A stretch of 32,352 nucleotides of DNA from Fimbriiglobus sp. (GTDB lineage Bacteria > Planctomycetota > Planctomycetia > Gemmatales > Gemmataceae), in assembly GCA_025362195.1 (NCBI GenBank), contig JANYHV010000284.1, positions 1 to 32,352 on the forward strand. The letters are read 5' to 3'. Below, one piece after another: positions 8,503 through 32,338 of the stretch. Below the pieces are notes generated by a model. That model saw nothing but the letters and a program-made list of their open reading frames with translations. It did not search any database and was not told where the DNA came from. The translations under genes were made by a program, and so were the position numbers. Every line of letters starts with the position of its first letter. Position 1 is the stretch's first letter.

Positions 8503-8563
8503 TGGTGCCGGCCGCGGCGAGGCCGGTCGGCGGCGCTGTCGGGTCTCACCGCGGCCGGCACCA
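8503..8563. terminator. GC-rich hairpin between convergent genes, possible bidirectional terminator
   Basis: Bases 8503-8517 pair perfectly with 8549-8563 (15 bp, core GGTGCCGGCCGCGG) around a 31-nt loop. It lies between the stop at 8474 (plus) and the stop at 8584 (minus). There is no T-tract on either side, so any termination would be weak or factor-assisted. Confidence 0.45.
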
Positions 8564-8583
8564 GCGGAACCCGGCCGGCCCAC

Positions 8584-9522: not shown

Positions 9523-9523
9523 G

Positions 9524-10399: not shown

Positions 10400-10448
10400 C
10401 GTCGAAACCTCCGTTGGGGGGCCGTTGCGAAGTCAGGTCTTCGGCTCC

Positions 10449-10531
10449 AGGCGAACCGGAAGCGTCAGCGACCGGAATCTACGCTTGGAGTGTCGCGGGA
10501 GACTCCGGCCGCTGACGCTTCCGGTTCGCCT
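10449..10531. repeat. Palindromic dispersed repeat, family shared with 32272-32338
   Basis: An inverted repeat: 10449-10480 pairs with 10500-10531 with 30 of 32 positions matching (first 22 bp perfect, core GGCGAACCGGAAGCGTCAGCG), loop 19 nt. The same core with few changes forms the palindrome at 32272-32338. It sits in the gap between paralogs 3 and 4. It has no ORF, so it is a MITE- or REP-like element rather than an autonomous one. Confidence 0.75.
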
Positions 10532-10546
10532 CGAATTTCGTCGCCG

Positions 10547-11440: not shown

Positions 11441-11490
11441 CGTCACTCCTCCGCGGGGGGCACACTGAGTCACTTACCGGCCGGTCGGCG

Positions 11491-12369
11491 TCACTTGTCG
11501 TTCACGGGGAAGACTTCGCCCCACCACACCTTGTCCGTGGCCCGCACCCGGGCGAGCAGCTTGCCCTCCAGGTTCACGACCTTGTCGGCGTAGACGCGGT
11601 ACAGGTGCAGCGGGTCGTTGTTGAACGTACACGTCGGGCTGCGCACCATCGACCAGACTTCCTTCTCCTTGCGCTGGACGTGCAGGTCGCGGTCGGAGAA
11701 GCGGCCGCAGGCGTACTCCCAGCGGGCCTTGCCCTCCACCACCCGCGCCTCGATCAGCAGCAAGACCTCGGGGTCGGTGCCGGCCGTCGAGATGAGGGTG
11801 AACAGCGCCCCGTCGGTGACGCCGGACTTGGCCTCGGGGTAGCGGAACAGCGGGGCCGGTAGCAGCCGCAACTCCCAGCGCTTGCCCTCCGGGTCCTGGC
11901 TGTGGCCGGTGAACTCTTGGGCGAGCCGGCGCATCTGCAGCAGCCGCCCGCCGGCGGTCGCGGCCGGGGCCGGGGCGTCGGTCAACTCCTTGCGCTCCAA
12001 CCCGGCCTGCGGCACCCAGTCGTTCATCGCGTTGGTCCGGGAGACGACCAACTTCTCGGGGTCGAGGGCGTGCATCTCGTGGATCAGTTGCCGGCCGACC
12101 GGCTTGTCGTGCGCCTGCGAGAAGACGCTGGCGAGGGCCGCCGGCCGGCCGTCGCGCAGCCACACGAACACGACCCCTTGTTGCAATCCCTGCCGCGTCG
12201 CGTTCGACCAGTCGAACACCGGCTCCTTCTTCAGTTCCAGCGGCTTGCCCGGCGCGGACTCGACGGCGATCGTGTACTCGGTCGCCTCCCGAACGTAGAA
12301 GGGCAGCATCGATTTTCCCAGAGCGTCGTCGGGCAACGCCAACAGCAGGCAGGCCAGCAATGCGGTCAT
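11491..12369 (-). CDS. Secreted protein of unknown function, paralog 5 of the local family
   Basis: 292 residues from the ATG at 12369 (GGAG eight bases upstream; a GTG three codons earlier is the alternative). Signal peptide MTALLACLLLALPDDALG. Family blocks: KSMLPFYVREATEYTIAVES, LKKEPVFDWSNATRQGL, VWLRDGRPAALASVF, HEMHALDPEKLVVSR, RLLQMRRLAQEFTGHS, WELRLLPAPLFRYP, TDGALFTLISTAGTDPEVLL and WEYACGRFSDRDLHVQRK. It is the family member directly after blaR1 (15-nt gap), so it is likely co-transcribed with the BlaI/BlaR1 pair. Function unknown. The strict conservation of the LRLLP-PL-RYP and GTDPE-LLLIEA blocks across five copies suggests a folded domain under selection. Confidence 0.87.
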   Translation of the reverse strand: MTALLACLLLALPDDALGKSMLPFYVREATEYTIAVESAPGKPLELKKEPVFDWSNATRQGLQQGVVFVWLRDGRPAALASVFSQAHDKPVGRQLIHEMHALDPEKLVVSRTNAMNDWVPQAGLERKELTDAPAPAATAGGRLLQMRRLAQEFTGHSQDPEGKRWELRLLPAPLFRYPEAKSGVTDGALFTLISTAGTDPEVLLLIEARVVEGKARWEYACGRFSDRDLHVQRKEKEVWSMVRSPTCTFNNDPLHLYRVYADKVVNLEGKLLARVRATDKVWWGEVFPVNDK

Positions 12370-12384
12370 GGTCGGCACTCCAGA

Positions 12385-14771: not shown

Positions 14772-14803
14772 TCTTCTGGACCTGGCCACTAGATGGCCGG
14801 TCT
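14772..14803 (+). repeat. Degenerate solitary REP-like element
   Basis: The sequence (begins TCTTCTGGACCTGGCC, ends GGCCGGTCT) matches the first REP unit at 23249-23280 over most of its 32 positions, including both ends, but the GTAG headpiece reads GGAC. It lies alone between the GATase-like gene and blaI, 8.5 kb from the transposase. Probably a decayed copy spread by the RAYT. Confidence 0.6.
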
Positions 14804-14818
14804 GCGATTCCCCCGCGG

Positions 14819-17212: not shown

Positions 17213-20200
17213 CACTTGGCCCCCCCGGCCGACAGCGAGCGGAGGTAGCGCTCGACGAGGTCCTTGTACTCCGGCGGCACGGCTTCGGTCCCGGCGGTGA
17301 AGCGGTCGCCGGCGACGAACTCTTGCAACTTCGCCACCAGCCGCGCGTGGGCGACGGCGACCCCCCGGCCGAACGCCTCGTTGCCGACCGCGACGGGGCC
17401 GGCCGTCAACCCGGCCCGGAGGTCGTCATCGACGACCGCGGCCAGGCCGGCCGCCTCCAGGCGCTCGACGAACTGTGCGCCCTGCTGGCGGAGCCGCCGC
17501 CAGTCGGCCGCGTCGTCGGCCGCCCCGGCCCGCTGCTCCAGGTCGTTCGCCTCGCGCTCCAGCCGGCCGACCTCTTCGAGCCGCGGGGCGACCGTCTCGC
17601 GGTACGCCTGGTCGAGCTTCTGGCCGAGCGCCGCGAACCGGTCGGCCAGGTCCTGCCGCCCGCCCTTGTCGGCCCCGGCTCCGGCTTTTTCGAGCCGGGC
17701 GATCGCGGCGGCCAGGTCTTCGGCCTTCAAAATCCCGCCGGCCTTGCGGGCCGCGTCGGCGTCCGCCTCGGCCCCGGACCCGGCCAGTTTCTCCAGTACG
17801 TCCTTCAACGACTTGGCCTGCTCGGCGGCGTTGCCCAGGCCCGGCAGCTTGCCGTCGGCCCCCTCGCCGGCCCCGGGGGGAGTCTTCATCGGGTCGGCCG
17901 GGGCCGCTAGCGCCGCGATGTCGTTGGCCAGGTCGCGGGCGGCGGCCAGTTGCTGCGCGGCTTCCGCGGCCGCCAGCGCGCCGACCTGCTTGGCCGCCGT
18001 GCGGAAGATTTCGCGGGCGCGGTCGACCTCCTTCCGGGCCGTCGGCCGGTCCCCCTGGCCCAGCGCGTCGGCGGCGGCGTTGGCGGCCTTCGCGGCGTCG
18101 GCGATCCGCGTCTTGGCCAAGCCCGTCAGCCCCTTGGCGGTGGCGGCGATCTTGTCGATGGCGGCGGCCCGGCCGGCGATGTCGTCCTGCCGCTCCTGGG
18201 CCGGGTCGTCGCCCTTCGCGGGCTTCTTCGGCTCCGGCGTGTCGCCCTCGGCCTTCAACGCGGGGGTCGTCCCCGGCCCGGCGATGGCCCCGGCGACCTC
18301 GTCCTCCTCGCCGGCGAGCTTGGCCAGTTCCTCGGCGATTTGCGGCAGGGTCTCGGCCTTCTCGTCCTGCCGGCGGAGTTTCTGCCGCTGCAGCCGGTCG
18401 AAGGCCTTCGCCTGCGCCCGGACGGCCCGCGTCTGCTTCGTGAGCGCCACCTGCGCCGTGTTCCGCGCCTCCATCAGGTAGCGCAGCGCGTCGCGCTCCT
18501 GGCCAACCGCCGTGGCGAACTTCGCCCCGTTCAGCGAGTCCACGGCCGACAGCATCGCCTCCTCCGCCTGGGCCAGGATGGCGGCCCCGTCCACGCCGAG
18601 GCCGACCAGAAAGTCGGCCAGGTCGCGCGTCTGGGTCGCCAGCTTGTTCTCGAACGCCGCCAGCTTCTCGACGGCGGCCAGGTCGAGCCGGACCTTCGAC
18701 CGGCTCTCGAGCCGCATCGTCTGGTTCAGGTTGAACCGCTGCCGGGCGATCACCTCGTCGAGGAAGATCAGCTCGCGGCGCGGGCCGCCGGCCGCCTCCT
18801 CGGGGGCGTCGAGCAACTTGAAGGTCCGCAGGAACGGCCGGATGTCGATGAAGCGCAGCTCCGTCGTCGCCCGGTGCGGCGCGTCGGGGAAGTTGTCCTC
18901 CGCGAAGGCGTAGTAGGCGACGCAGTCCTTCTGCGTGAGCACGAGCTGCTCGAGCATCAGCACCTGCTCGGCGACCGCCTCGCGCTGGTGCGGGTTCGCC
19001 ACGTCGTGCAGGATCAGCGTCCGCTCGACCTCGTTGTTCACCTGGAAGACGACGCCGACGCGGGCGACGCCGAAGTCGTCGCGGGCGCGGGCGCGGACCA
19101 CGATCTCGGCGAGCGTGTGGACTTCGAGGCCCTCGCCCGGCGCGTCGAACGAGACCGACGGCGGCTGGTCGGCGGCGACCCGGACGCGGTGCCGGTTGGC
19201 CGCCAGCGGCATCCCGTCGGCGTCGCGGGCCTCGACGGCGTACTCGACGTCGGCCGTCAGCGGCAGTTCGACCGAGACCGCGTTCAGGGTCACGGCCATC
19301 TCGAGGCGGCGCGGCGGGGCGGCCGGCGCGGCGGGGTCTTTGACCACCAGCGTCGCCGACACCGGCGGGCGGTCGAGTTCAAAGCGCAGGGTCGCCGCGC
19401 CGCCCTGGACGGCGGAGAAGCTGCCGGCGTCGTGGGTCGCGGGGGGCACGCCGGTGTAGGCCGGGGCGGTGACCGCGGCGCGAACGCTCAGGATTTTCAG
19501 CGCGTGCCGGACGACGACCGTCTGGACGGCGGACCGCTCCGGGCCGGCCGCGACGTAGAACTCGGTCGTCGATCGCAACTTCGACAGCCTGGCCGCGAAG
19601 CCCTCCTCGGTCGCCTCCATCGGCTCCCGGTTCCAGTCCGACGCCCCGACTTCGCGGGCGAACAGGACCACCTCGGGGCGGGCGCGGCCGGCCACCGTCG
19701 CGGCCACCTCCACGTCGGTGCCCTCGTCCACCGCGTCGGCGGACGCCGTGACCGCCAGGGCCGTGTACGGCTCGGACGCGAGCGCCACCCGGCCGACGGC
19801 GGTCCGCCACTCGGGGGCCTGCGCCGCGGTCACCGCCAACAGCGCGACGACGGCCGCGGCCGCGGCCCCGGTCATCAGCGCCGGCCGCACCGGCAGGGCG
19901 GCCCGGAGTGGCAGCGGCTTCGCCCGCTCGGCCGTCTCGACCTCGAGCGCCGCCGCCAGGCCGGGCGAGACGCCGTCGCGGGCCAGCTCGTCGGCGGCGC
20001 GGTGGCCGTGCTGCGTCGCGGTCCGTAGGCGCTGGCCGAGGCGGGGGAACATCGCCTCGAGTTCGGCCGCCACCCGCGACCGGTCCCAGGCCCGCGCCGG
20101 GCGGACGACCCAGCGCGCGGCGAGCGCCCCGACGGCGAGCGCCGACGCCGCGAGCAGGCCGGCGCGGACCGGCCGCGACAGCTCGAAGGCGTAGTCGGCG

Positions 20201-20337
20201 GCGGCGACGGCCGCCACCAGGCCCGCCCCGACGAGGACGGTCCAGGCCAGGCCGCGGCCGACGTGGACCGACCACGCCTGCCGGGCGACCCTGCGGAACC
20301 GCCGCCGGAACTCGGGCCGAATCTCGATCGTGGACAT
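17212..20337 (-). CDS. DUF4175-like large membrane protein with long coiled-coil/helical C-terminus
   Basis: 1041 residues from the ATG at 20337, which has GGAGGT six bases upstream. Two helices near 25-45 and 55-75 and a third (~150-170, TGAAAAAVVALLAVTAAQ) precede a beta-rich, Ig-like extracytoplasmic part (~175-480). From ~560 on it is highly helical and charged, rich in Ala, Lys, Glu and Asp (for example QRLRRQKLRRQDEKAE-like runs), consistent with coiled coils. This architecture is what DUF4175-family proteins show in the same cluster position. Role is likely scaffolding in a membrane complex. It follows the BatA-like gene after 13 nt and overlaps the next gene by one base. Family name is from architecture and context. 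Confidence 0.8.
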   Translation of the reverse strand: MSTIEIRPEFRRRFRRVARQAWSVHVGRGLAWTVLVGAGLVAAVAAADYAFELSRPVRAGLLAASALAVGALAARWVVRPARAWDRSRVAAELEAMFPRLGQRLRTATQHGHRAADELARDGVSPGLAAALEVETAERAKPLPLRAALPVRPALMTGAAAAAVVALLAVTAAQAPEWRTAVGRVALASEPYTALAVTASADAVDEGTDVEVAATVAGRARPEVVLFAREVGASDWNREPMEATEEGFAARLSKLRSTTEFYVAAGPERSAVQTVVVRHALKILSVRAAVTAPAYTGVPPATHDAGSFSAVQGGAATLRFELDRPPVSATLVVKDPAAPAAPPRRLEMAVTLNAVSVELPLTADVEYAVEARDADGMPLAANRHRVRVAADQPPSVSFDAPGEGLEVHTLAEIVVRARARDDFGVARVGVVFQVNNEVERTLILHDVANPHQREAVAEQVLMLEQLVLTQKDCVAYYAFAEDNFPDAPHRATTELRFIDIRPFLRTFKLLDAPEEAAGGPRRELIFLDEVIARQRFNLNQTMRLESRSKVRLDLAAVEKLAAFENKLATQTRDLADFLVGLGVDGAAILAQAEEAMLSAVDSLNGAKFATAVGQERDALRYLMEARNTAQVALTKQTRAVRAQAKAFDRLQRQKLRRQDEKAETLPQIAEELAKLAGEEDEVAGAIAGPGTTPALKAEGDTPEPKKPAKGDDPAQERQDDIAGRAAAIDKIAATAKGLTGLAKTRIADAAKAANAAADALGQGDRPTARKEVDRAREIFRTAAKQVGALAAAEAAQQLAAARDLANDIAALAAPADPMKTPPGAGEGADGKLPGLGNAAEQAKSLKDVLEKLAGSGAEADADAARKAGGILKAEDLAAAIARLEKAGAGADKGGRQDLADRFAALGQKLDQAYRETVAPRLEEVGRLEREANDLEQRAGAADDAADWRRLRQQGAQFVERLEAAGLAAVVDDDLRAGLTAGPVAVGNEAFGRGVAVAHARLVAKLQEFVAGDRFTAGTEAVPPEYKDLVERYLRSLSAGGAK

Positions 20338-20350
20338 GGGACGACCTCCG

Positions 20351-22309
20351 TTAAGCCACCGTGCGGTTCGCCAGGACACCTTCGACCAGCCAGCACACCA
20401 CCACGACCAGCCACAGCCAGGGCCACAGTTCCCCCGCCCGGAGTTCCGTGCCGTCGTCGAGCGCCGCCGTCGGCGTCACCGGCCCGGCGTCGTCCGCGGC
20501 CAGGGTCAGGCCGAGCCGGCGGGCGAACTCCTCGGGCGAGCACGCCTCCAGGTCCGACTCCGGGGCTTCGAGGTTGCGGACCTCCCAGACCTCGCCGACC
20601 CGCCTCACGCCCGGCACCTCCCCCGCCGCCGGCAGGTCCCGAATCGGCCCCGCCCCGGCCAGCCCCGCCGCCCCGCGCACGAGTTGGTGGACCAGCGGCA
20701 GGAAGAGCCGGCTGCGGCTCCAGTCGCCGTGCTCGCGGCCGACGGACGCGACGCACCACAGCACGCGCGGGCCCGCGCGCTCCAACAGCAGCGGCGTGCC
20801 GTCGCGGAACTTGGCGAGCACCTGCACCCCGGCGGCCGGCACCACGCGGGTACACGCCGAGAACGTCAGCCGGTGCAGGTCGCCGTGCTGCGGGTCGGCG
20901 AACGGGGCCAGCACCGGGTGGTCGCCCGCGAACTCGGCGACGCGGAACGGCACGTCGCGGGCGGCGTGGGTGCCGGTGACCTCGCCGACCGAGAGTCCGG
21001 CGGCGGCGTAGCTCGCAACGCTGGCCGGCCCGACGTTGCCCCCGCCGAAGACGACGGCCGCGCCGCCACGCTCCAGGAAGGCCCGCACCCGCACGGCGTC
21101 GGCCGCGCCGAACCCCGCGACGTTGGCCGCCACGAGCACGTCGACCTCGCGCAACTCCGGCAGCCGGGCGTCCGCCGCGTAGGGGAACACGCTGACCTGG
21201 AACGGGCCGTCGGGGTTCGCCTCGCCGGGGGCCGCCAGTCGCAGCGCCGCTTCGAGGAAGTACGCCTCGCCCAACACCGCCACGTCCCGCGCGGCCCCGT
21301 CGAGCAACAACAGTCGCGGCTTGGCGGTGGCGTACACGGCGACGTGCCGGGCGTCGTCGAAGGGCACCCCGTCGTTCCCGGCGACCGACACCGTCCCTTG
21401 CCACAGCCCGGCACTCAGCGGCGGCGTCTCGAAGCCGACCGTGGTCGAGGCACCGGGCGCGGCCGACGCGACCCCGGAGAGCGTGACGACCTTGCCGCCG
21501 TTGGCCAGCGTTAGCCGCACCGGGAGTTGGTCCAGCCGCTCCGGTCGCGCGTTCAGCACGGTCGCCTGGACCGTGGTCGGCTGGTCGGCCCGCACCATCA
21601 GGCTGACGGGGCGGACCTCGGTCACCGCGACGTTGCCGGTCGCGGCCGGGCCGGCGTCCCAGACGCGCACCGGCACGCCCTTGGGGAACGCGAACGCCTC
21701 CAGGGTGCCGAAGCCCGAGCGCTGCAAGTCGGTGAGGACGTGGACGGCCAGCGGGCCACTACCCCGCGCGGCGTCGCACCGCGCGGCGGCCCAGGTCAGC
21801 GCGGCGGCGAAGTCGGTGCCCCCGGTGAGGACCTCCGGGGCCTTCAGGTCGGCCAGTGACACCCGGCCGTCACCCGGCGAGCCGACCGGCTCCGCCTTCG
21901 TGTCGAACCAGGCGACCTCGACGCGCGACCGGGCCGGGGCACCGGCGACGACCTCGGGCAGCCGGCGCAGGGCCAGCTCCACCAGCCGCACGCCGTCGCG
22001 CTGGCGGCCCATGCTCGCCGACCGGTCGATGAGGACCACCGTCAGCCCGGTGTCCCCGTCGGTCGCCGGCGCGGCGCGGTACGGCCGGGCGAAGAGCAAC
22101 GCCAGCAGCGCGACGCAGCCGACGCGCAGGGCCAGCAGCGCCCAGCGCTTGAGCTTACGCCGGCGGGTGTCGTGGCGGACGGCGAGCTTCAGGAAGCGCA
22201 GCGTGCCCAGGTCCACCGGCCGGGAGCGCCGGCGGAAGATCAGGTGCGCCAGCACCGGCAGGGCCACCGCCGCCAGCGCCGCCAACATCGATGCCTGGAG
22301 GAAGCCCAT
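20351..22309 (-). CDS. BatA-type protein: aerotolerance N-terminal domain plus VWA domain
   Basis: 652 residues. The N-terminus is the BatA (aerotolerance regulator) membrane module: a helix at ~8-24 (MLAALAAVALPVLAHLIF), a basic loop with RRRSRPVDLGTLRFLK, and a second helix at ~57-74 ending in FARPYR. A VWA domain follows with the MIDAS motif DRSAS (~95-99). The C-terminal half includes a GATase-like/Ig-type segment (RAFLERGGAAVVFGGGNVG), and a final helix (LWPWLWLVVVVCWLVEGVL) near the end. VWA domains bind protein partners through a metal; with MoxR they form envelope or folding systems. It lies 12 nt after DUF58 and 13 nt before the DUF4175-like gene. Confidence 0.87.
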   Translation of the reverse strand: MGFLQASMLAALAAVALPVLAHLIFRRRSRPVDLGTLRFLKLAVRHDTRRRKLKRWALLALRVGCVALLALLFARPYRAAPATDGDTGLTVVLIDRSASMGRQRDGVRLVELALRRLPEVVAGAPARSRVEVAWFDTKAEPVGSPGDGRVSLADLKAPEVLTGGTDFAAALTWAAARCDAARGSGPLAVHVLTDLQRSGFGTLEAFAFPKGVPVRVWDAGPAATGNVAVTEVRPVSLMVRADQPTTVQATVLNARPERLDQLPVRLTLANGGKVVTLSGVASAAPGASTTVGFETPPLSAGLWQGTVSVAGNDGVPFDDARHVAVYATAKPRLLLLDGAARDVAVLGEAYFLEAALRLAAPGEANPDGPFQVSVFPYAADARLPELREVDVLVAANVAGFGAADAVRVRAFLERGGAAVVFGGGNVGPASVASYAAAGLSVGEVTGTHAARDVPFRVAEFAGDHPVLAPFADPQHGDLHRLTFSACTRVVPAAGVQVLAKFRDGTPLLLERAGPRVLWCVASVGREHGDWSRSRLFLPLVHQLVRGAAGLAGAGPIRDLPAAGEVPGVRRVGEVWEVRNLEAPESDLEACSPEEFARRLGLTLAADDAGPVTPTAALDDGTELRAGELWPWLWLVVVVCWLVEGVLANRTVA

Positions 22310-22321
22310 GACCGCCCTTCG

Positions 22322-23212
22322 TTAGTGCTGCGAGCGCCGCGCGAAGTAAGCCTGTAACGCGCCGTCCAGGGGGTCTTCCGTCGTCAGCTCGACCCGATCG
22401 ACGCCGCGCGTCAGGCACTCGCGGTCGAGTTCGGTCAGCCACTCCCGGACGGCGAGACGGTAGCCGTCGCGGACGCCCTCGCTGAGCGTCGTCACCGTCT
22501 CGCCGGTCTCGAGGTCGCGGAAGCGGACGTTGCCTTCGAGCGGCAGGTCGCGCTCCCACGGGTCGAGCACCTGGAACAGCACGACTTCGTGCCGCAGGAA
22601 CAGCAGGTGGTCGAGGCCGCCCATGAGGCGCGGGAGGTCGTCGAAGCAGTCCGAGATGACCGCCACGACGCCGCGCTGCTTGCACAGCTCGGCCGCCTCG
22701 TGGATGGCCCGGCCGGCGTCGGTCGTGGCCCGCGGGACCGCCGCCTGGATCAGCCCGAGGATTTCCGCCAACTGGTGGGCCGCGGCCCGCGGCGGCAGGC
22801 TCGCCAGCACGCGGTCGGCGAACAGCGTCACCCCCGCCGCGTCGTGCTGCCGGATCGCCAGGTGCGCCAAAGCGGCGGCCAGGGTCGCCGCGTAGTCGAG
22901 TTTGCTGCGGCCGAGGCTCGCGCACGCCATCGACCCGCTCACGTCGAGCAGGACGTACAAGTTGAGGTTGGTGTCGCCGTCGAACTCCTTGACGTAGAGC
23001 CGGTGCTGGCGGGCGTACAGCTTCCAGTTGATGTGCCGCGGGTCGTCGCCGGGCACGTACTCGTGGTGCGACGCGAACTCGACGCTGAAGCCGACGCGCG
23101 GGCTGCGGTGCAGGCCGTGCAGGAACCCCTCGACGACGGCGCGGGCGCGCAGCTCGACGCCGTCGAGGCGGGAGAAGAACGCGGGGTCGGCCAGTTCGCG
23201 CGTCGCGGTCAT
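22322..23212 (-). CDS. DUF58 domain protein, MoxR partner
   Basis: 296 residues. The DUF58 signature GDDPRHINWKLYAR is at ~55-68, and a VWA-type MIDAS motif DVSGSM at ~90-95, followed by a second metal-site region (VVAVISDCFDD, ~200). DUF58 proteins partner with MoxR ATPases, likely as adaptor or substrate-binding proteins at the membrane. It has no transmembrane helix. In most genomes moxR and DUF58 are adjacent; here they are separated by 907 bp holding a RAYT and REPs. The ATG at 23212 has only a weak upstream Shine-Dalgarno, unlike its neighbours, and the nearest REP hairpin ends only 37 bp from the start, which could affect expression. Confidence 0.92.
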   Translation of the reverse strand: MTATRELADPAFFSRLDGVELRARAVVEGFLHGLHRSPRVGFSVEFASHHEYVPGDDPRHINWKLYARQHRLYVKEFDGDTNLNLYVLLDVSGSMACASLGRSKLDYAATLAAALAHLAIRQHDAAGVTLFADRVLASLPPRAAAHQLAEILGLIQAAVPRATTDAGRAIHEAAELCKQRGVVAVISDCFDDLPRLMGGLDHLLFLRHEVVLFQVLDPWERDLPLEGNVRFRDLETGETVTTLSEGVRDGYRLAVREWLTELDRECLTRGVDRVELTTEDPLDGALQAYFARRSQH

Positions 23213-23248
23213 CGGCTGAGGTCTCGCCCTGGAGGCTGTGGGTCTTGA

Positions 23249-23320
23249 TCTTCTGTAGCTGGCCGCTGTGAGGCCGGTCTTTTCTTGGTCTTCTGTAGCC
23301 GGTCGCTTCGAGGCCGGTCT
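23249..23320 (+). repeat. Two tandem REP units (R1, R2)
   Basis: R1 at 23249-23280 and R2 at 23289-23320, same orientation, 40-nt period, both with GTAG headpiece and a bulged hairpin. R1 carries variant bases in the stem (CTGGCCGC in place of CCGGTCGC), with compensating pairing kept on the other side. Confidence 0.8.
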
Positions 23321-23334
23321 TGGGCTTTTCTTGG

Positions 23335-23434
23335 TCTTCTGTAGCCGGTCGCTTCGAGGCCGGTCGGACCCCCTAGGTCAGGGCCTCCCGTGTGGGGAAG
23401 TAAGACCGGCCTCAAAGCGACCGGCTACAGAAGA
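23335..23434. repeat. BIME-like unit A (two convergent REPs)
   Basis: REP R3 (plus, 23335-23365) and REP R4 (minus, 23403-23434) face each other around a 37-nt centre that contains CCCCCTAGGTCAGGG. This 96-bp unit is repeated inverted at 23991-24086. It sits 15 bp beyond the transposase stop. Confidence 0.85.
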
Positions 23435-23449
23435 CGAGACCGCTGCCGC

Positions 23450-23923
23450 TCACTCATATCGCAGGTCGTTCAATACGCCTTGCCATGGCCACTCCGCTGG
23501 CTCGGCTACCAGGCCGGCCCGCACGGGGTTTTCGCGCACGTACTCCCACTTCTGCTCGTAGCTCTCCGAGGATCGAATGACGTGGTCGTGGAATTCCCGC
23601 TGCCATAACGGTAATGCGTGCCCCAGTCTCTGGGCAACGTACTTGGCCGTCCACTCTTTCCACTGACCGACGAAGTACCCTAATGGCCGCTCCTCACGGG
23701 CATCGCCGACGAAGAAATGGACGTGGTCCGGCATCACCACGTAGCGGCCGACGGCCCACCCCGACAGCCGCAAGCAGTTGGCCCACACCTCCAGCGCGAT
23801 CGCGTGAAAGCCGTCGCTCCCCAAGCATCGGGCGCGACCGGCAGTACACGTTGTGACGAAGTACACCGCATGCGGCACATGCACCTCGTCGAGGCGTCGC
23901 AAATATTTGTGGCCTGGTGTCAT
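23450..23923 (-). CDS. REP-associated tyrosine transposase (RAYT, IS200/IS605-like Y1 family)
   Basis: 157 residues. Single-strand DNA nicking/joining enzyme of the HUH/Y1 class that acts on REP hairpins. The HUH motif is MPDHVHFF (His67 and His69); WQREFHDHVIR (~107-117) is a RAYT landmark, and Tyr128 in WEYVRENPVRAGLV is the likely nucleophile. The frame extends 22 codons upstream into the right-hand REP R5, so the ATG at 23923 was chosen; its Shine-Dalgarno is weak. Length is typical. The gene is intact, with REPs of the expected GTAG type on both sides, so it may still be active. RAYTs are usually single-copy domesticated genes rather than free transposons. Same strand as the operon it interrupts, so read-through transcription could express it. 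Confidence 0.9.
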   Translation of the reverse strand: MTPGHKYLRRLDEVHVPHAVYFVTTCTAGRARCLGSDGFHAIALEVWANCLRLSGWAVGRYVVMPDHVHFFVGDAREERPLGYFVGQWKEWTAKYVAQRLGHALPLWQREFHDHVIRSSESYEQKWEYVRENPVRAGLVAEPAEWPWQGVLNDLRYE

Positions 23924-23948
23924 CGCGTCCGCCGAGTCGGTGTATTTT

Positions 23949-23978
23949 TTCTGTAGCCAGTCGCTTCGAGGCCGGTCT
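23949..23978 (+). repeat. Single REP unit R5 at the transposase 5' side
   Basis: CTGTAGCCAGTCGCTTCGAG followed by GCCGGTCT; one change in the stem (CCAG for CCGG). It lies 26 bp upstream of the RAYT start, 12 bp before BIME-like unit B. Confidence 0.75.
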
Positions 23979-23990
23979 TGTCTTAGCAAT

Positions 23991-24086
23991 CTGTAGCCGG
24001 TCGCTGAGAGGCCGGTCTTACTTCCTCACACGGGAGTCCCTGACCCAGGGGGTCAGACCAGCCTCGAAGCGACCGGCTACAGAAGA
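23991..24086. repeat. BIME-like unit B (two convergent REPs), inverted copy of unit A
   Basis: REP R6 (plus, 23991-24018) and REP R7 (minus, 24055-24086). The unit is the reverse complement of 23335-23430 with 7 differences in 96 positions; the centres also match, not only the REPs. It lies between the RAYT start and the moxR stop at 24120. Confidence 0.85.
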
Positions 24087-24119
24087 TCGGCCGGATGCCG
24101 GCCAGTACCCCCCTCCCGA

Positions 24120-25163
<1,044 letters not shown>

Positions 25164-25177
25164 GGCGGTCCTCTCAG

Positions 25178-26794
25178 TTAGTGGGCCTTCGCGGCCTCGG
25201 TGGGGTCGATCAGGCCGTCGCGGTCGGTGTCGAGTTCCTCGAAGGCGTGGCGCGGCCCGAGGAACTCCTTCCAGGTCAGGTCGCCGTCGAGGTTGCGGTC
25301 CATCCGCTGGAACCAGACCGGGCCGACCGGCGTGCGCGTCGCGGCGACTTGCCGGGGGACGGTCGACTCCCCCATGCCGCCGGTGCCGAACAGTTGGAAC
25401 GTGCCGCGGACGACTTCGAGGTGCAGCCGGCGCGGCGGGTCGCTCGCCTTGAGCACGGCCTGCCCCGGCTTGCGCAAGTTCTGCAGGGTCGTGGCGGCGA
25501 CGCGGATCTCGCGCAGCCCCAGCCGGCCGTCGTGGTTGCGGTCGAGGGTCTCGAAGAAGCCGTGGCCCAAGTCGTGCAAGACGATGTCGCAGCGCGTGGC
25601 GGCGACCTCGGCCCGGCCGCGGACGTAGGACTCCATCTCGGCCCAGAAAATCTTGTCGTCGCCGTCGGCGTCGATGGTCTCGAAGAGGCCGCGCTGGAAG
25701 CGGGCGTTGTCCTTGAGTTCGTCGCGGTCGAGGTAGCCGTTCTGGTCCGCGTCGAGGCGGTTGAACTGCGCTTGGGCGTCGGCGAGCGCGACGCGGACCG
25801 GGTCGAACGACCGCACCGCCAGCGCCACGTCAGTGTCCGCGAAGCCGAAGGTCGCCACGTCGGGCCGGGTCGAGCGGGCGTTCGACGCGGCCGTCGCCTC
25901 GACCCGCGGCGGCTGGCCGGCGGGCGGCTCCAACTCGAGCGCCGCCTCCACGTCGGGCTTCTGCCGCCGGAAGGCCGCGAGTTCATCGACGCTCAGCTTG
26001 CCGTCGCCGTCGGCGTCGAGGGCGCGGAACCGCTCGGCCGACAGGCCGATCTCGTCGGGCGACAGCTTGCCGTCGCGGTCGCGGTCGTAGCGGCGGACCA
26101 GGCGCGGCCCGAACAGCAGCCCCGCCCCGTCCACGAGCAGCGTGCTGGCCGCCGCGAGGGGGCGCTCGGGCGTGCCCGGCATCACCGCGACGAGCATCCG
26201 GGCGGCGTCGGGCGGGTTGAACTCGTCGAGCGTCACGCAGTCGTCGTCGTCCGTGTCCTTGGCGAGCAGCAGCGCCGGGGCTTCGAGGAGTTCGCTCTCG
26301 GAGAGGACGCCGTCGCGGTTGGTGTCGAGCGCCGCGAAGACGAGGTCGTCGGTCTTGCGGGCGGTGTTGTCCTGGCGGAACGCGAGGGTCTCCCCGGCGA
26401 CCCGCTCCAGGGCCTCGGCCAGCTTCGCCGCCGGCACCGTCTCGGCCGCCTCCTTGGCCGACATCGGCCGGGCGGTCCCCCCGCGCCGCGCGGTGTTCAG
26501 CGGCGACCGGTCGAATTCGAGGCGGCTCAGCTTGCCGTCGCCGTCGGTGTCGAGCGCCGCGAAAAGCCGGGCCAGGTAGTCGCGCCGGACCGCCTGCGGC
26601 GACTTGCCGCCGATGGTGATCTTGAGGCGCAGGTGCAGCGGCCCGCGGTCGAGCAGCAGGAACACGTCGCGGACCGCCTCGGGGTCGTCGGCCGGCGCGG
26701 GCCGGTCGGCCGCCGCCGCCAACGCGACGGCGAACGCGGCGGCCGCAATCGGCCCCGCCAACGTCGCCCCCAGAGTTCGCAGCGGGGCGCGCAT
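25178..26794 (-). CDS. Secreted protein with about ten EF-hand motifs
   Basis: 538 residues. A signal peptide (LAGPIAAAAFAVALAAAADR, ~13-32) is followed by ten canonical or near-canonical EF-hand calcium loops: DTDGDGKLSRLEF, DTNRDGVLSESEL, DTDDDDCVTLDEF, DRDRDGKLSPDEI, DADGDGKLSVDEL, DADQNGYLDRDEL, DADGDDKIFWAEM, DRNHDGRLGLREI, DRNLDGDLTWKEF and DTDRDGLIDPTEA. Only DTDDDDC departs from the usual Gly at position six. It probably binds calcium outside the cytoplasm. The ATG at 26794 overlaps the DUF1501 stop as TGATG; the frame is open further upstream but there only shadows the DUF1501 gene. EF-hand proteins next to DUF1501/DUF1549 genes are frequent in planctomycetes; the exact function is unknown. 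Confidence 0.9.
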   Translation of the reverse strand: MRAPLRTLGATLAGPIAAAAFAVALAAAADRPAPADDPEAVRDVFLLLDRGPLHLRLKITIGGKSPQAVRRDYLARLFAALDTDGDGKLSRLEFDRSPLNTARRGGTARPMSAKEAAETVPAAKLAEALERVAGETLAFRQDNTARKTDDLVFAALDTNRDGVLSESELLEAPALLLAKDTDDDDCVTLDEFNPPDAARMLVAVMPGTPERPLAAASTLLVDGAGLLFGPRLVRRYDRDRDGKLSPDEIGLSAERFRALDADGDGKLSVDELAAFRRQKPDVEAALELEPPAGQPPRVEATAASNARSTRPDVATFGFADTDVALAVRSFDPVRVALADAQAQFNRLDADQNGYLDRDELKDNARFQRGLFETIDADGDDKIFWAEMESYVRGRAEVAATRCDIVLHDLGHGFFETLDRNHDGRLGLREIRVAATTLQNLRKPGQAVLKASDPPRRLHLEVVRGTFQLFGTGGMGESTVPRQVAATRTPVGPVWFQRMDRNLDGDLTWKEFLGPRHAFEELDTDRDGLIDPTEAAKAH

Positions 26795-28092
26795 CAGACC
26801 AGTCCCTCGATGGCCTGGCCGCCCTTGACGAGCGGGATCGGCCGGCCGTCCCAGGTGTGGTTCTCGGCCTTCGGATCCACGCCGACGGCGGCGAACACCG
26901 TCGAGAGGAAGTCGGAGACGCCAACCGGCCGGTCGGTGACGGCCATGCCGTCCTTGCCCGTGCTGCCGACCGCCTGCCCGCCCTTGACCCCGGCCCCGGC
27001 GAGGACCGCCGACCACGCCAGCGGGAAGTGGTCGCGCCCGGCGGTGGGGTTGATCTTCGGCGTGCGGCCGAACTCGCCCATCCAGACCACCAGCGTGTCG
27101 GCCAGCCGGCCGCGGTCCTTCAAGTCGGCGAGCAGCGTGGCGAACGCCGGGTCGAAGGTCTCGCTCAGGGTCTTCACAGCCTCGAAGTTGTTGGCGTGCG
27201 TGTCCCAGCCGTCGAGGGTGACTTCGACGAACGACACGCCGCGCTCGATCAGCCGGCGGGCCAGCAGGCAGCCTTGGCCGAAGCGGTTGCGGCCGTAGGC
27301 GTCGCGCAGCTTGGCCGGCTCGTCCTCCAGGCGGAAGCCGCCGCGCGCCTGCGTGTCGATCATCCGCTGGGCCTTGCGGTAGCTCGCGGCGTGCGCCTTG
27401 GCCCCCGCCCCGCCGTGGCGCTTCTCGAAGTCCCCCTGCAACTCGCCGAGCAGCGCCCGGCGCACGTCCTGGTCCGACGCGGCGACCGGCCTGTCGGCCT
27501 TGAGGAAGTCGATGGTCAGGTTGGCGCGGGCGGTCGGGTCGTCGCTGATCCCCGAGACGGCCATCGGCGCGAACTGCGGGCCGAGGAACCCGGCCCCGAT
27601 GTCGCCACCCAGCCCGCCGAAGCCGCCCTGCGAGATCGTGATGTAACTCGGCAGGTCGTGGTCCGGGTCGCCGAGTTGCTTGGCGAACAGCGACCCGAGG
27701 GCCGGGTAGGCCACGACCTCGCTGGGCAGTTGGCCGGTGTGGAGCAACTGCGTGGCGCGCCCGTGCTCGCCCTCCTTGGTCGTCATGCTGCGGATCACCG
27801 CGAGGTCCTTCGCGCCCGCGGCGAGCTTCGGCAGGTGCGCGCTGAAGCGCAGCCCCGGCACCGCGGTGGCGGCCTCCTTCGACGGCCCGCCGTTCTTGTG
27901 GTCGGGCTTCAGGTCCCAGGTGTCGGTCTGGCTCGGGCCGCCGGACATCCACAGCACGATGCACGCCTTGGCGTTCTTCTTGGCCTCGGCCGCCGCCGCG
28001 AGGCCCGGCAGCCACGGGCAGGCCGCCGCCCCGAACGCGCTGGCGAAGCTCATGCGAGCGAAGTCGCGCCGACTGAAATCACGCATCCCCAT
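26794..28092 (-). CDS. DUF1501 domain protein (sulfatase-like fold), Tat-type signal
   Basis: 432 residues. The N-terminus MRDFSRRDFARMSFASAFGA carries a twin-arginine-type motif (SRRDF) and a hydrophobic stretch, predicting export in folded form. DUF1501 landmarks: WMSGGPSQTDTWDLKPD (~48-64), SMTTKEGEHGRATQLLHTG, VTLDGWDTHANNF, VVWMGEFGRTPKIN and AGRDHFPLAWSAVLAGAGVK. The fold is related to the alkaline phosphatase/sulfatase superfamily; substrates unknown. In planctomycetes DUF1501 is almost always next to a DUF1549/DUF1553 gene, as here (15-nt gap). The ATG at 28092 has GAGG five bases upstream; a second ATG two codons later is an alternative. It overlaps the EF-hand gene as TGATG. Confidence 0.93.
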   Translation of the reverse strand: MGMRDFSRRDFARMSFASAFGAAACPWLPGLAAAAEAKKNAKACIVLWMSGGPSQTDTWDLKPDHKNGGPSKEAATAVPGLRFSAHLPKLAAGAKDLAVIRSMTTKEGEHGRATQLLHTGQLPSEVVAYPALGSLFAKQLGDPDHDLPSYITISQGGFGGLGGDIGAGFLGPQFAPMAVSGISDDPTARANLTIDFLKADRPVAASDQDVRRALLGELQGDFEKRHGGAGAKAHAASYRKAQRMIDTQARGGFRLEDEPAKLRDAYGRNRFGQGCLLARRLIERGVSFVEVTLDGWDTHANNFEAVKTLSETFDPAFATLLADLKDRGRLADTLVVWMGEFGRTPKINPTAGRDHFPLAWSAVLAGAGVKGGQAVGSTGKDGMAVTDRPVGVSDFLSTVFAAVGVDPKAENHTWDGRPIPLVKGGQAIEGLV

Positions 28093-28107
28093 GAGAACCT
28101 CGCCGGG

Positions 28108-29577
28108 TTAAGGACACAGAACGAACTCGGGACTGTTCAAGAGCGCCCAGAAGATGTTGGCGTAGGCCTGGCGCTCGGCCTCGGCGTCGCCGGGCTTGGC
28201 CCGCACGACTTTCAGGAACCGCTCCCGCTCGGCCGGCCGCGGCGTGCGGCTGTACGCCGCGAGGAACAGCGTGTCGAGCTTGTCGCCGTCCTTGAGGAAC
28301 GGCGCGTCCACGACGGCCCGCAGGGTCATGCTGTCGTCGAGCGTCGTCGCGCGGGAGATCACGCCGCCGTTCATGAGCAGCAGCGCCTGCGGGATGCCGG
28401 CCCGGAAGTCGGTGGGCGACGCGCCGCGGGCCTCCTCGAGCCTGGCCCGCAGGGTCATCCCCTCCGGCGTGTACCGGGGGCTGAGCGTCCGCCCTTTTTT
28501 GAGGGCGAGCGACTGGTCGAGCGCGGCGAACACCTGGTCCGGGGAGAGCGTGCGGATCGGCCGGCGGGCCGAGCCGGGTTCGGCGGCCGCCGCGCCGACC
28601 TGCTGGTACGCCTTGCTCAGGCAGATGCCCTCGACCAGCCAGCGCACGTTGAACCCGCCGGCGGCGAACTTGTCCGCGAGTTCGCCCAGGATTTGCCCGC
28701 GCTCCTCCGGGGCGAGCGTGTCGAGGTCGTCCACCGTGGAGACCAGCCCGGTGCCGCACAGGTCTTGCCAGACGCGGTTGACCGCGTTGGCGGCGAAGTA
28801 CGAGTTGGCCGGCGTGGCGACCCAGTCGGCCAGCACCGACCGGGGGGTGCGGCCCGCCGGGAACTTCGGGGCCGGGCCGTCCAGGAACTTCGCCTCGAAC
28901 TCGCGGTTGCTGTCGATCGCGGTGATCCTCGTGGCGACCCCGTCGGTGACGCGCCCCGGCGTCGCGCCGGTCCCGGCGAAGAAGGCCGCCATGCCCCAGA
29001 AGTCCTCGCGCCGCCAGGCCGCGAGCGGGTGGTTGTGGCACTGGGCGCAGCCGAGCCGGACGCCCAGGAGGCCGCGCGACACCGCCTCGGCGACGCGCTC
29101 CGGGGTGTTGCCGACGGCCGAGTAGAAGCCGGACGGGCCGGCGCTGGCGTCCCCGGTGGCGGTGAGGACCGAGCGGGCGACCTCGTCGAACGGCGCGTTC
29201 CTGCGGAACTCGCCCTTCAGCCAGCCCTCGAGCGGCCCGCGCGTGGATCCGGCCGGGGCGAGTGTGCGCGCCCACAGCCCGGCGAAGTGCTCGGCGAAGC
29301 GCTTGTCGTCGAGCAGCGTGGCGACCAACTGGTCGCGCTTACTGGCACTCGTCGAGCCGAGGAAGTCGCGGGCCTCCGACACGCTCGGGACGGTGCCGGT
29401 CAGTTCGAGGTAGGCGCGGCGGAGGAAGACCTCGTCGCCGGCGACCTCACGCGGGGGCAGCCCCTTGGCGCGCCAGGCGGTCTCGAGCTTGGCGTCGATC
29501 CAGGCGGCGAGTTCCGCCGGGCTTTCGGCCGGCTTCCCCGCGCCCAGGCCGATCACGAGAATGGTCAGCGACAGCAT
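28108..29577 (-). CDS. DUF1549/DUF1553 domain protein
   Basis: 489 residues. After a short signal-like N-terminus (MLSLTILVIGLGAG) comes DUF1549 (~20-215: AWIDAKLETAWRAKGLPPRE, FLRRAYLELTGTVPS, RFAEHFAGLWARTL) with LGCAQCHNHPLAAW at ~176-188. CAQCH fits a c-type heme-binding motif, but the Cys may instead be structural. DUF1553 follows (~250-489: ADWVATPANSYFAANAVNRV, YQQVGAA, LSPDQVFAALDQSL, TLFLAAYSRTPRPAERERF, FWALLNSPEFVLCP). It is compact: it lacks the N-terminal cytochrome c-like domain seen in longer relatives. First gene of the run, 185 nt from the U32 gene with a candidate promoter; GGAGGGG lies eight bases before the ATG. Confidence 0.93.
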   Translation of the reverse strand: MLSLTILVIGLGAGKPAESPAELAAWIDAKLETAWRAKGLPPREVAGDEVFLRRAYLELTGTVPSVSEARDFLGSTSASKRDQLVATLLDDKRFAEHFAGLWARTLAPAGSTRGPLEGWLKGEFRRNAPFDEVARSVLTATGDASAGPSGFYSAVGNTPERVAEAVSRGLLGVRLGCAQCHNHPLAAWRREDFWGMAAFFAGTGATPGRVTDGVATRITAIDSNREFEAKFLDGPAPKFPAGRTPRSVLADWVATPANSYFAANAVNRVWQDLCGTGLVSTVDDLDTLAPEERGQILGELADKFAAGGFNVRWLVEGICLSKAYQQVGAAAAEPGSARRPIRTLSPDQVFAALDQSLALKKGRTLSPRYTPEGMTLRARLEEARGASPTDFRAGIPQALLLMNGGVISRATTLDDSMTLRAVVDAPFLKDGDKLDTLFLAAYSRTPRPAERERFLKVVRAKPGDAEAERQAYANIFWALLNSPEFVLCP

Positions 29578-29651
29578 CGAACGCCCCTCCGAGCAACCCG
29601 AGTGGACCGCCGCCCGACGCCCAGAATTGCGGGGGCGGCGGGCACAAGTCC

Positions 29652-29681
29652 ACTATAAAGACAAATTGACTTGAGTTGCAA
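29652..29681 (-). promoter_or_regulatory. Candidate promoter for the DUF1549-DUF1501-MoxR-VWA run
   Basis: On the minus strand, TTGCAA (29676-29681) and TATAGT (29652-29657) are separated by 18 nt, 75 nt before the ATG at 29577. The surrounding 29640-29720 region is the most AT-rich stretch in the window, which supports the call. A second TTGACA-like hexamer lies farther upstream near 29698-29703 with no good -10 partner. Confidence 0.5.
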
Positions 29682-29720
29682 GGGCTTCTCGCCCCGAATG
29701 TCAAAAATCGGCGAAATTGC

Positions 29721-29754
29721 CGCCCCCGCCGGCCGCCGCGTGGGCGCGGGGGCG
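29721..29754 (-). terminator. Hairpin downstream of the U32 gene, possible terminator
   Basis: CGCCCCCGC (29721-29729) pairs with GCGGGGGCG (29746-29754), 9 bp, 16-nt loop, starting 9 nt after the U32 stop. Minus-strand sequence after the stem is GGCAATTTCGCCGATTTTTG, a weak T-rich tail, so termination is plausible but not certain. Confidence 0.5.
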
Positions 29755-29762
29755 TCACCGGT

Positions 29763-32246
29763 CTACACGACTTGCAGGGTGCCGCGGGTCACGCCGAGTT
29801 GGCTCATGACTTGCAACGGCTTCCAACTCGCCGCGCCGGTCACCTCGCCGCGGATCACGCGGGCGTAGTGCTCCAGCAGCGGGCCGACCTGCGCGGGCGT
29901 CTCGCGCAAGAGGTCGACGCGGAAGCGGCGGACGCCGAGGTCGCGCATGCGGCCGACGTACTCCGCGGCCGACTGCGCCACGCTGTTGAACACCGTGTTG
30001 CGGCAGCCGGCGTCGGGCACGACGGGGAAGTTGGCCCCGACGCGGTCGCGCAGCTCGACGGCGTGCCGGTCGCACGGCCGGCCGCAGTCGCGGTGGTCCT
30101 TGCCGCTGGAAAGGAAGGCCGCGAAGACGCAGAATTCGTTGTGGAACATGGGCATGTGCTGGTGGACGACCGGCTCGAACCGTCCCGCGTCCGAGGCGCG
30201 CATCAGCCCCTGGAACTGCTCCCAGTTCAGGTCGTAACTCGGCGTCAGTCGCGCCAGCCCCGCCTTGAAGAGCACGTCGGCGGTGCGGCGGTTGGCGACG
30301 TTCAGGCTGAAGTCGCCGAGCAGCTCGGCGTCGGGCAACTGCTCGCGGAAGTAGCCGATCGACGCCAGGTTGCGGACCAGCACGGCCGCGGGGTTCGCCT
30401 TGACGACCATCGCCGCGAAGCCGCCCTCGGTCGGCTTCCAGACCCGCAGCGGGGCGACCGCCAGCGGCACCCCGGCGGCGCGGGCGACCTCGACGGCGTC
30501 CTTGTAACGCCGCAGGTCCTCGAAGTCGGCGATGACCAGCGCCGGCGTCGGCAGGCCGTCGGGCCTCCACGCGAGTACCGCGTCGAGTTGGGCGGGGTTG
30601 CGCACGAGCACCGTCAGCCGGCCGTCGGACTTCGCCACCGGCGCGTTCACCGGCTTCGTGTGCGGCGTCGCCGGGAGGGTGGCGTGGCGGACGACGCGGC
30701 GGGCCACCAACTCGGCGGCGGCGGCCCGCCGCAGGTCGTTGACAACGGACTTCGGCACCAGCACGCCGTCGGGGAGCGTCAGGGTCAGTCCGGCCAGTTC
30801 AAACGGCGTCTCGCCCAGTCTGGCGACGGGGACGCGAAGTTCGTCGGCCGTCGTGCCGCGCTGCCGGGCGACTTCGAGCGGGCCGGGCCACGTCGCGCTC
30901 CCCGCGCGGCCGGCGTCGTCGGCAAGGGTCAGCGTCAGCGGCCCGCCGAGTTCGCCACTGAGCGTCGCGGTCACCGGGGCGCGGCGGTGAGTCCGGTCCT
31001 GAGAGTACGTCTGCTCGAGCCGCTTCATCAGCGCCGGGTCGGCCGTCTTCCACACGTCGCACCCCACCGGCACGCGGCGCAGCTCGATCGCGTCGGCGGC
31101 GAAGCGGACCTCGACCGCGTTGACGCCCCCCGGCACCGGCAGCACCTCCCAGACGCGGCCGCCCGGCTCCTCCTCCGCCGGCCGGCCGAGGTCGAACAGC
31201 AAGCCGTCGCCGGGCTTGACCGCGTCCGTCAGCGTCTCGGCGAGTTCGATGCGGACCCCCCGGCCGCTGACGCTGAGCACCGTGCCGAGTTTGACGCCGC
31301 GGCTCTTGGGGAAGCGGCCGCGGACGAGTTTCTGGTGGTCGACGCCGTCGAGGAAGCCGTGCGTCAGGCCGCGGCTGAAGGTCTGCGCCAGGTCGAGTTG
31401 CTCGCGGCGCGGCAGGGCGAGCGGCGTCGCGGCGAGCGCGGCGTCGATCGCCTTGCGGTAGGTCGCCGTCGTCGCGGCGACGTAAGGCCCGCCCTTCAGC
31501 CGGCCCTCGATCTTGAACGACACGACGCCGGCCTCGACGAGTGGCGCGATGAGGTCGTAGGCCGCCAGGTCTTGCGGGCTGAGCAGGTACGCCCGGTCGC
31601 CGAGCGGCTTGACGACGCCGTCGACGACCATCTCGTAGGGCAGCCGGCAGGCCTGGGCGCACTGGCCGCGGTTGGCGCTGCGGCCGCCGAGGGATTCGCT
31701 CGTGAGGCACTGCCCCGAGTAGGCGACGCACAGCGCCCCGTGGACGAACACCTCCACCGGCGTGTCGGTCGCGGCGGTGACGAGCCGGATGTCGTCGAGC
31801 GACAGTTCCCGCGCCAGCACCACGCGCTCGACGCCCAAGTCCCGCACGAAGGCGATGCCGCGGGCCTCGGTCAGCGTCATCTGCGTCGAGCCGTGGACGG
31901 CCAGGGTCGGGGCGACCTCGCGCAGCAGCGTGACGACCCCGAGGTCCTGGACGATCACCGCATCGACCCCGGCGTCGGCCATCGCGCGGATGTAGCGCTC
32001 GGCCTCGGGCAGTTCGTGGTCGAAGACGAGGATGTTCATGGCGACGAAGCCGCGGACGTTGCGGGCGTGCAGGAAGCCCATCACCTCGGGGAGTTCGTCG
32101 AGCGTGAAGTTGTTGGCCCGCGCCCGCGCGTTGAACGCCGACAGCCCGAAGTAGACGGCGTCGGCCCCGTTGGCGACGGCGGCGCGGAGCGCCTCCCAGT
32201 CCCCGGCGGGGGCGAGCAATTCGGGCGGGTGGGCGAGGGTGTTCAT
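29763..32246 (-). CDS. U32 family protein (RlhA/YdcP type) with extended C-terminus
   Basis: 827 residues. The N-terminal TIM-barrel-like U32 domain shows ELLAPAGDWEALRAAVANGA and the family signature EVFVHGALCVAYSGQC (~165-180), with Cys173, Cys180, Cys196 and Cys200, the four expected ligands of an Fe-S cluster. A middle DUF3656-like segment follows (~370-480). The C-terminus (~690-790) has a second Cys-rich cluster (FCVFAAFL... HRDCGRPCDRHAV... DAGCRNTVFN) resembling another U32-type Fe-S site. E. coli RlhA, about 650 residues, hydroxylates C2501 of 23S rRNA; related U32 proteins modify tRNA or ubiquinone, so rRNA/tRNA hydroxylation is the leading idea but not proven. It is transcribed alone, with a hairpin after its stop. 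ATG at 32246 fits the family N-terminus. Confidence 0.9.
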   Translation of the reverse strand: MNTLAHPPELLAPAGDWEALRAAVANGADAVYFGLSAFNARARANNFTLDELPEVMGFLHARNVRGFVAMNILVFDHELPEAERYIRAMADAGVDAVIVQDLGVVTLLREVAPTLAVHGSTQMTLTEARGIAFVRDLGVERVVLARELSLDDIRLVTAATDTPVEVFVHGALCVAYSGQCLTSESLGGRSANRGQCAQACRLPYEMVVDGVVKPLGDRAYLLSPQDLAAYDLIAPLVEAGVVSFKIEGRLKGGPYVAATTATYRKAIDAALAATPLALPRREQLDLAQTFSRGLTHGFLDGVDHQKLVRGRFPKSRGVKLGTVLSVSGRGVRIELAETLTDAVKPGDGLLFDLGRPAEEEPGGRVWEVLPVPGGVNAVEVRFAADAIELRRVPVGCDVWKTADPALMKRLEQTYSQDRTHRRAPVTATLSGELGGPLTLTLADDAGRAGSATWPGPLEVARQRGTTADELRVPVARLGETPFELAGLTLTLPDGVLVPKSVVNDLRRAAAAELVARRVVRHATLPATPHTKPVNAPVAKSDGRLTVLVRNPAQLDAVLAWRPDGLPTPALVIADFEDLRRYKDAVEVARAAGVPLAVAPLRVWKPTEGGFAAMVVKANPAAVLVRNLASIGYFREQLPDAELLGDFSLNVANRRTADVLFKAGLARLTPSYDLNWEQFQGLMRASDAGRFEPVVHQHMPMFHNEFCVFAAFLSSGKDHRDCGRPCDRHAVELRDRVGANFPVVPDAGCRNTVFNSVAQSAAEYVGRMRDLGVRRFRVDLLRETPAQVGPLLEHYARVIRGEVTGAASWKPLQVMSQLGVTRGTLQVV

Positions 32247-32271: not shown

Positions 32272-32338
32272 GGCGAGCCAGAAGCGTCAGCGTCTGGAGT
32301 CACGGGCGACCTCCAGGCGCTGACGCTTCTAGCTCGCC
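32272..32338. repeat. Palindromic dispersed repeat, same family as 10449-10531
   Basis: 32272-32299 pairs with 32311-32338 (26 of 28 positions), loop 11 nt. The core GGCGAGCCAGAAGCGTCAGCG differs from the 10449 copy at only two or three positions. It lies 26 nt upstream of the U32 start, so it may carry or separate that gene's promoter. Confidence 0.75.

Follow-up and report, generated by a model that had tools for sequence, protein, structure and literature searches.

A REPtron in the planctomycete Fimbriiglobus and a candidate RAYT residue for recognition of the REP loop

The stretch of DNA analysed here ("the window", 32,352 nt) is contig C61 of the Fimbriiglobus sp. bin G000, which comprises 5.66 Mb in 509 contigs at 87% completeness and 4.3% contamination. 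Between a moxR-type AAA ATPase gene upstream (24120–25163, minus strand; Pfam AAA_3, 1.8e-61) and a DUF58 gene downstream (22322–23212, minus strand; Pfam DUF58, 7.5e-47), which is where the original prediction had placed the insertion, the window carries a RAYT (TnpAREP) gene of 157 codons (23450–23923, minus strand; codons 23923 to 23453). The list of open reading frames also holds a longer frame of 179 residues that starts from TTG, but the sibling RAYT on contig C319 is likewise a 157-residue frame beginning with ATG. The protein matches the NCBIfam model NF047646 for REP-associated tyrosine transposases, HUH nucleases of the Y1 family with a single tyrosine (101.8 bits; cut-off 80), and its H67, H69 and Tyr128 are invariant in an alignment of 16 sequences, confirming the intact HUH/Y1 transposase that had been predicted; Val46 adjoins Trp47. 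E. coli TnpAREP bound to a REP hairpin (PDB 4er8) is the sole PDB match of a single-sequence phmmer search (E ≤ 0.1), ranks first among the 7 matches of a profile search and is the best Foldseek match to the fold (TM 0.74, from an AlphaFold model with pLDDT 88). Both proteins share this fold, the HUH/Y motifs and the positions that contact GTAG: the guide-contact residues W94, Q95, E100, H101 and R104 of the E. coli enzyme (PMC6006769) align with W, Q, D, H and R of the window RAYT, letters found in 77/84, 75/84, 77/84, 70/84 and 79/84 alignment rows, respectively. Asp in place of E100 distinguishes the window RAYT from the E. coli protein and is what subclasses 2.5 and 2.7 regularly have (PMC6006769). 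TnpAY1 class 3, which occurs chiefly in Planctomycetes, Acidobacteria and Proteobacteria and has a Y----Q motif and a CnGA foot (PMC6006769), was considered and rejected, given that the window RAYT has YVRENP and GTAG.

Seven GTAG-headed REPs, as many as had been predicted, are found in the window with up to 3 mismatches, all within 23255–24080, whereas none of 100 dinucleotide shuffles contains any. On the DUF58 side (three plus-strand and one minus-strand REP), REP 1 (23255–23278, plus strand, 2 mismatches) and REP 2 (23295–23318, plus strand, 0 mismatches) stand singly, REP 1 being of another subtype (GTAGCTGGCCGCTGTGAGG) that is frequent in the same-genus genome G001, and REP 3 (23341–23364, plus strand, 0 mismatches) and REP 4 (23405–23428, minus strand, 0 mismatches) form the 97-nt REPIN B (23335–23431). 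On the moxR side (two plus, one minus), the single REP 5 (23953–23976, plus strand, 1 mismatch) is followed by REPIN A (23990–24086, 97 nt), made of REP 6 (23993–24016, plus strand, 0 mismatches) and REP 7 (24057–24080, minus strand, 1 mismatch), with its GTAG ends outside and 65 nt from start to start. The gene is thus flanked by inverted REPs with GT(A/G)G heads, and the two REPINs are themselves mutually inverted, with 90/97 positions of REPIN B identical to reversed REPIN A; near-identical inverted units bracketing the gene had been correctly anticipated, though as 96 nt with 89/96 identities. CT lies immediately 5' of GTAG in all seven REPs. The expectation that the REPs fold as bulged hairpins is weakly supported for a single REP, as six 33-mers with single REPs fold roughly as well as shuffles (z −0.23 to −1.06), whereas a 97-nt REPIN folds strongly (z −8.5, reached in 0/200 shuffles). 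By eye, the 8-bp stem of the window subtype contains one G.T wobble and one G.A mismatch, which counts against reading the locus as a REPtron.

REPs of this kind are present throughout the bin. A pattern for the window subtype matches 19 sites in G000 (at most 3 mismatches), of which 12 lie beyond the window, and a pattern for the subtype found on C319 has 51, 22 of them exact, with 0 matches to the backwards control in either case. A head-free REP pattern finds 61 places in G000 (backwards control 3) and 47 in G001 (control 1), and 1 place in G002, another member of the genus (control 2); the numbers for G000 apply to a mixture, because the bin seems to combine two sibling lineages, and the counts are probably too low, as contig ends coincide with REPs in a number of cases and assembly breaks at REPs may have removed copies. 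With 61 places in the genome, the scarcity of further copies that would have spoken against the prediction is not seen, and the predicted RAYT with cognate GTAG REPs holds up. GTAG heads 48/61 REPs in G000 and 31/47 in G001, the remainder having other heads such as GGAG (5 and 12, respectively), so that the headpiece supposed to be common to all copies is shared by most of them. The pairing and orientation suggested by the window recur as well: a set of 61 REPs with up to 2 mismatches includes 19 head-to-head pairs, their members oppositely oriented and spaced 64–68 nt apart, of which 2 lie in the window, 1 on C319 and 16 on contigs without a RAYT match. None of 42 distinct copies at the examined loci falls within a predicted open reading frame, although the codon-based gene prediction behind this was crude and missed even the RAYT. 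These repeats are therefore multi-copy, paired in opposite orientation and, as far as the crude gene caller goes, extragenic, like REPs and REPINs elsewhere. Their 61 places in a 509-contig bin fall short of the more than 100 copies per genome given in the available portion of PMC2817692, which is a usual rather than a defining trait. G001, with its 47 REP places, yielded no RAYT, which also counts against the REPtron reading, yet the gene may have been lost in assembly, given that many G001 REPs are near contig ends. Other repeats in the window are a dispersed, partly palindromic element at 117–303 (about 140–190 bp; present about 30 times in the bin, with many copies 92–96% identical), sequence resembling which adjoins REPs on C36 and C218 by eye, and a roughly 70-bp palindromic repeat at about 32272–32338, with copies of 81–87% identity on C163, C6, C93, C352 and C456.

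The bin probably holds two sibling lineages with the REPtron at the same site in the second haplotype. C319 is collinear with window positions 14814–23975 at 87% identity and C466 with the moxR side of the window at 91%, and where C466 ends and C319 begins the two contigs overlap by exactly 21 nt inside a REPIN, as would be expected if the assembly broke there; a duplication in place of a sibling lineage could conceivably also account for this second copy. More widely, C466, C319, C280 and C212 run collinear with segments of window positions 14814–30388 at 87–91% identity. The RAYT of C319 is 80% identical to that of the window, and in a tree the two cluster with one RAYT from Planctomycetota and one from Verrucomicrobia (100/97). 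The five REPs adjoining the C319 gene belong to a different subtype (CTGGCCTC..GAGGCCGG, vs CCGGTCGC..GAGGCCGG in the window). This split is not clean, since REP 1 of the window represents a third subtype and C319 carries a window-type REP at 9234–9260, distant from its RAYT. Behind the same gene as that intact REP, the window has what looks by eye like a degenerate REP with the head GGAC (14778–14800, plus strand). The RAYT thus occupies one site in two haplotypes while its adjoining REPs have changed subtype, which is most simply explained by a gene that kept its place and a concerted turnover of the adjoining REPs.

Between the haplotypes, RAYT dN/dS is 0.10, a rough value with dS as high as 1.19, compared with a dS of 0.22–0.33 in three neighbour genes. 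Taken with the differing REP subtypes, this elevated dS might mean that the RAYT and its REPs arrived at the site twice or that the cassette was swapped between lineages, but we regard such a history as improbable. Its dS excess is confined to transitions (0.218 at four-fold sites vs 0.012–0.044 in the neighbours) and its four-fold C↔G divergence, measured over just 55 sites, is 0.145 and thereby comparable to the 0.136–0.22 of the neighbours, so the RAYT seems to be as old as the genes around it. Weaker codon constraint would explain the raised dS, as the RAYT has a GC3 of 0.77 in a nine-gene comparison where the others reach 0.94–0.97, apart from one gene at 0.84. The cassette swap was therefore rejected once the four-fold changes had been split by type.

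A second alternative, also raised by the original prediction, is a composite mobile element whose inverted 97-nt ends let the RAYT and its flanks transpose together. Besides the near-identity of these ends, the surroundings of the gene could be taken in this sense. Among 30 DUF58 loci, moxR is found beside DUF58 at 23, no more than 216 nt apart in 17 and 659–963 nt apart in 6 (the window included), and only the window and C319 have a RAYT in between, so the block looks inserted between two genes that are usually close together; most of the other pairs are probably paralogous, being only 37–44% identical. RAYTs of at least 50% identity are found in 4/95 genomes of the family (its own included), and the 3.4-kb loci of the three from other genera (54–67% identity) lack any match to moxR or DUF58. 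The REPs at these three loci, which are headed GTAG or GTGG and have related stems, speak for a REPtron. In the accessible part of PMC2817692, the unit of a RAYT gene between two inverted REPs is likened to transposable elements, but the same arrangement is described there as the normal one. We consider joint transposition very unlikely: both haplotypes are occupied at the same site, only two RAYTs (on C61 and C319) and no third were found in the bin, 16 of the 19 REPIN pairs lie on contigs without a RAYT match, and the C↔G divergence described above makes the gene appear equally old as its neighbours. Whether relatives lack the block has a mixed answer. The sole close orthologue of the site (80%), in G002, is without a RAYT but has a 272-residue gene there instead (L091:686–1504), the sibling contig C319 has both RAYT and REPs, and no clean empty moxR-DUF58 site was seen among these loci. 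The G002 gene is similar in DNA to genes in a row at window positions 6717–12378, where by eye several similar-looking genes of about 280–310 residues each follow one another.

That the gene belongs to a classical IS200/IS605 insertion sequence rather than being a RAYT is hardly credible. A Pfam Y1_Tnp match barely above its cut-off (24.4 vs 23) speaks for it, but the NCBIfam IS200 model reaches 20 bits against a cut-off of 55 where the REP-associated model exceeds its own, REPINs are dispersed without the gene, and the bin offers two RAYT places in lieu of a family of full-length copies. The locus is very probably a REPtron, that is, a domesticated-type HUH/Y1 nuclease present in one copy per haplotype together with its own REPIN population. 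This reading draws directly on the identity of the protein, the architecture, copy number, pairing and (crudely assessed) intergenic placing of the REPs, and the constraint on the RAYT. By analogy with the E. coli and S. maltophilia enzymes, the RAYT would bind a single-stranded REP hairpin through the GTAG foot and the loop, would cut via Tyr128 at the CT dinucleotide beside the REP and may occasionally copy REPINs into new intergenic places.

Compared to described systems, this is a real but ordinary REPtron in a planctomycete. It had been put forward as a sign that the GTAG recognition code reaches a distant phylum, but this is no discovery because GTAG REPs in Planctomycetes were already reported in 2013: the available text of PMC3733652 gives R. 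baltica several REP families and places REPtrons in most species with GTAG REPs. Like the window REPs, the GTAG-headed families that it describes from R. baltica and O. terrae come from the PVC superphylum, a likeness of head and host. The REPtron Sm of S. maltophilia, with a group 3 TnpAREP, has REPs of 23 nt consisting of GTAG, an 8-bp stem and a 3-nt loop, a layout shared with the REPs of the relatives analysed below, while the imperfect stem of the window subtype is unlike it; its loop is GCT with an essential G13, whereas loops in the window subclade start with T except in some window REPs (comparisons with the accessible part of PMC8266576). The REPs of E. coli differ in their greater length and a bulge, and SELEX showed no selection of their loop bases. 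As in the window, REPINs are known as oppositely oriented REPs on either side of a spacer, and RAYTs as single-copy and vertically inherited genes (the latter from PMC8049555; both as far as the available parts of PMC3116915 and PMC8049555 extend); relative to these, the window adds a new lineage, with dozens of REPs in a fragmented bin.

Related RAYTs were surveyed at loci from named records, of which the best 80 out of 280 were used and most belong to Verrucomicrobiota, by scanning up to 400 nt from the RAYT for 8-bp stems (at most 1 mismatch) with a 3-nt loop and ranking all tetramer heads. GTAG is the head of such 8-3-8 hairpins at 44 of these 80 loci and the next head, CCGG, at 8. When perfect 8-bp hairpins with loops of 3–5 nt were taken first, GTAG headed 95/395 near the RAYT (next TGTA, with 29) and 7/242 at more than 1500 nt from it. 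This prevalence of GTAG on 8-3-8 hairpins beside related, mostly verrucomicrobial RAYTs is new here. In Planctomycetota, RAYT matches (E ≤ 1e-25) are found in 4/392 genomes including its own; plasmids gave 5 records with a match, all below 60% identity, and viral contigs gave none. The GTAG rule is one of this RAYT clade and not of all planctomycete Y1 proteins, since among 27 more distant planctomycete homologues GTAG is not the top head of repeated words (10/27, with GCGG on top at 17). Five homologues of about 40% identity in the family (L250–L254) likewise have no GTAG- or GTGG-headed 8-3-8 REPs. Two planctomycete Y1 transposases, at L026 (1232–2268) and L039 (889–2509), are accompanied by dense arrays of GTGG-headed or other repeats that are unlike the window REPs.

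The part of this work worth following is a correlation between the REP loop and a single RAYT residue. Going by the majority of REPs at a locus, the loop begins with G at 36 of the 44 loci and with T in the window subclade (C319, L120, L121 and L247–L249); read as 8-3-8, the window REPs themselves have loops starting with T in at least five of seven cases, by eye and in a register made uncertain by the imperfect stem. One alignment column fully separated 7 T-loop from 33 G-loop proteins, with Val in 7/7 and Glu in 33/33. This column, V48 in the alignment, is V46 counted from the ATG, beside Trp47, and E. coli TnpAREP has Ala there in a profile alignment judged by eye. Over 45 loci, the rule "G if and only if Glu" has L184, with one A-loop and one G-loop REP, as its sole departure; a protein-length filter took 4 of the 44 REP loci (L123, L165, L167 and L190) out of this test. 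Letters other than G are less regular, with Val (L126) and Phe (L194) at A-loop loci, and three Glu loci (L146, L151 and L174) are uninformative because they have no 8-3-8 REP.

The resulting prediction was recorded before further loci were obtained and held at 8/8 new loci, 2 of them G with Glu, 5 T with Phe, Phe, Phe, Tyr and Thr, and 1 C with Ala; these include relatives of loci in the first comparison. They come from 60 stretches of the same genomes, chosen by hand out of 136 matches and mostly second or later matches per genome, of which 6 near-duplicates of earlier loci were dropped and 46 of the remaining 54 had no 8-3-8 REP. In the joint set, 51 of 52 loci follow the rule, making this column the best single-residue predictor among 153 (the next reaches 48/52), and Glu goes with G, and Val, Phe, Tyr or Thr with T. 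L302 has another hairpin layout and was left out of the 52, though its T loop and Thr agree with the rule, and L310 has a gap at the column in the joint set, having shown Ala in the new-locus alignment. Parsimony counts 3 switches between Glu and other residues and 4 between G and other bases, so few independent events underlie the support, and shared descent accounts for a large part of it. We propose only tentatively, at clearly less than even chances and from sequence comparison, that the residue at the Val46 position in the first long helix may read the base with which the REP loop begins (G by Glu, T by Val or an aromatic residue, and perhaps C by Ala) and that RAYT and REP specificity may shift together. 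A literature search on RAYTs, loops, specificity and covariation returned only an unrelated review, a thin basis for calling the correlation unpublished.

The locus adds a well-resolved planctomycete case to the known RAYT/REP systems, and its two sibling haplotypes with one RAYT site and differing REP subtypes are a natural example of RAYT-REP co-divergence. The correlation suggests where in the RAYT loop specificity may sit. In the available text of PMC8266576, structural data on the REP contacts of group 3 enzymes are said to be missing, and a relation between one residue and one base brings this question within reach of assays with oligonucleotides and two point mutants of environmental enzymes. 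If the relation is true, it would amount to a simple, swappable recognition code for the hairpins that a RAYT copies.
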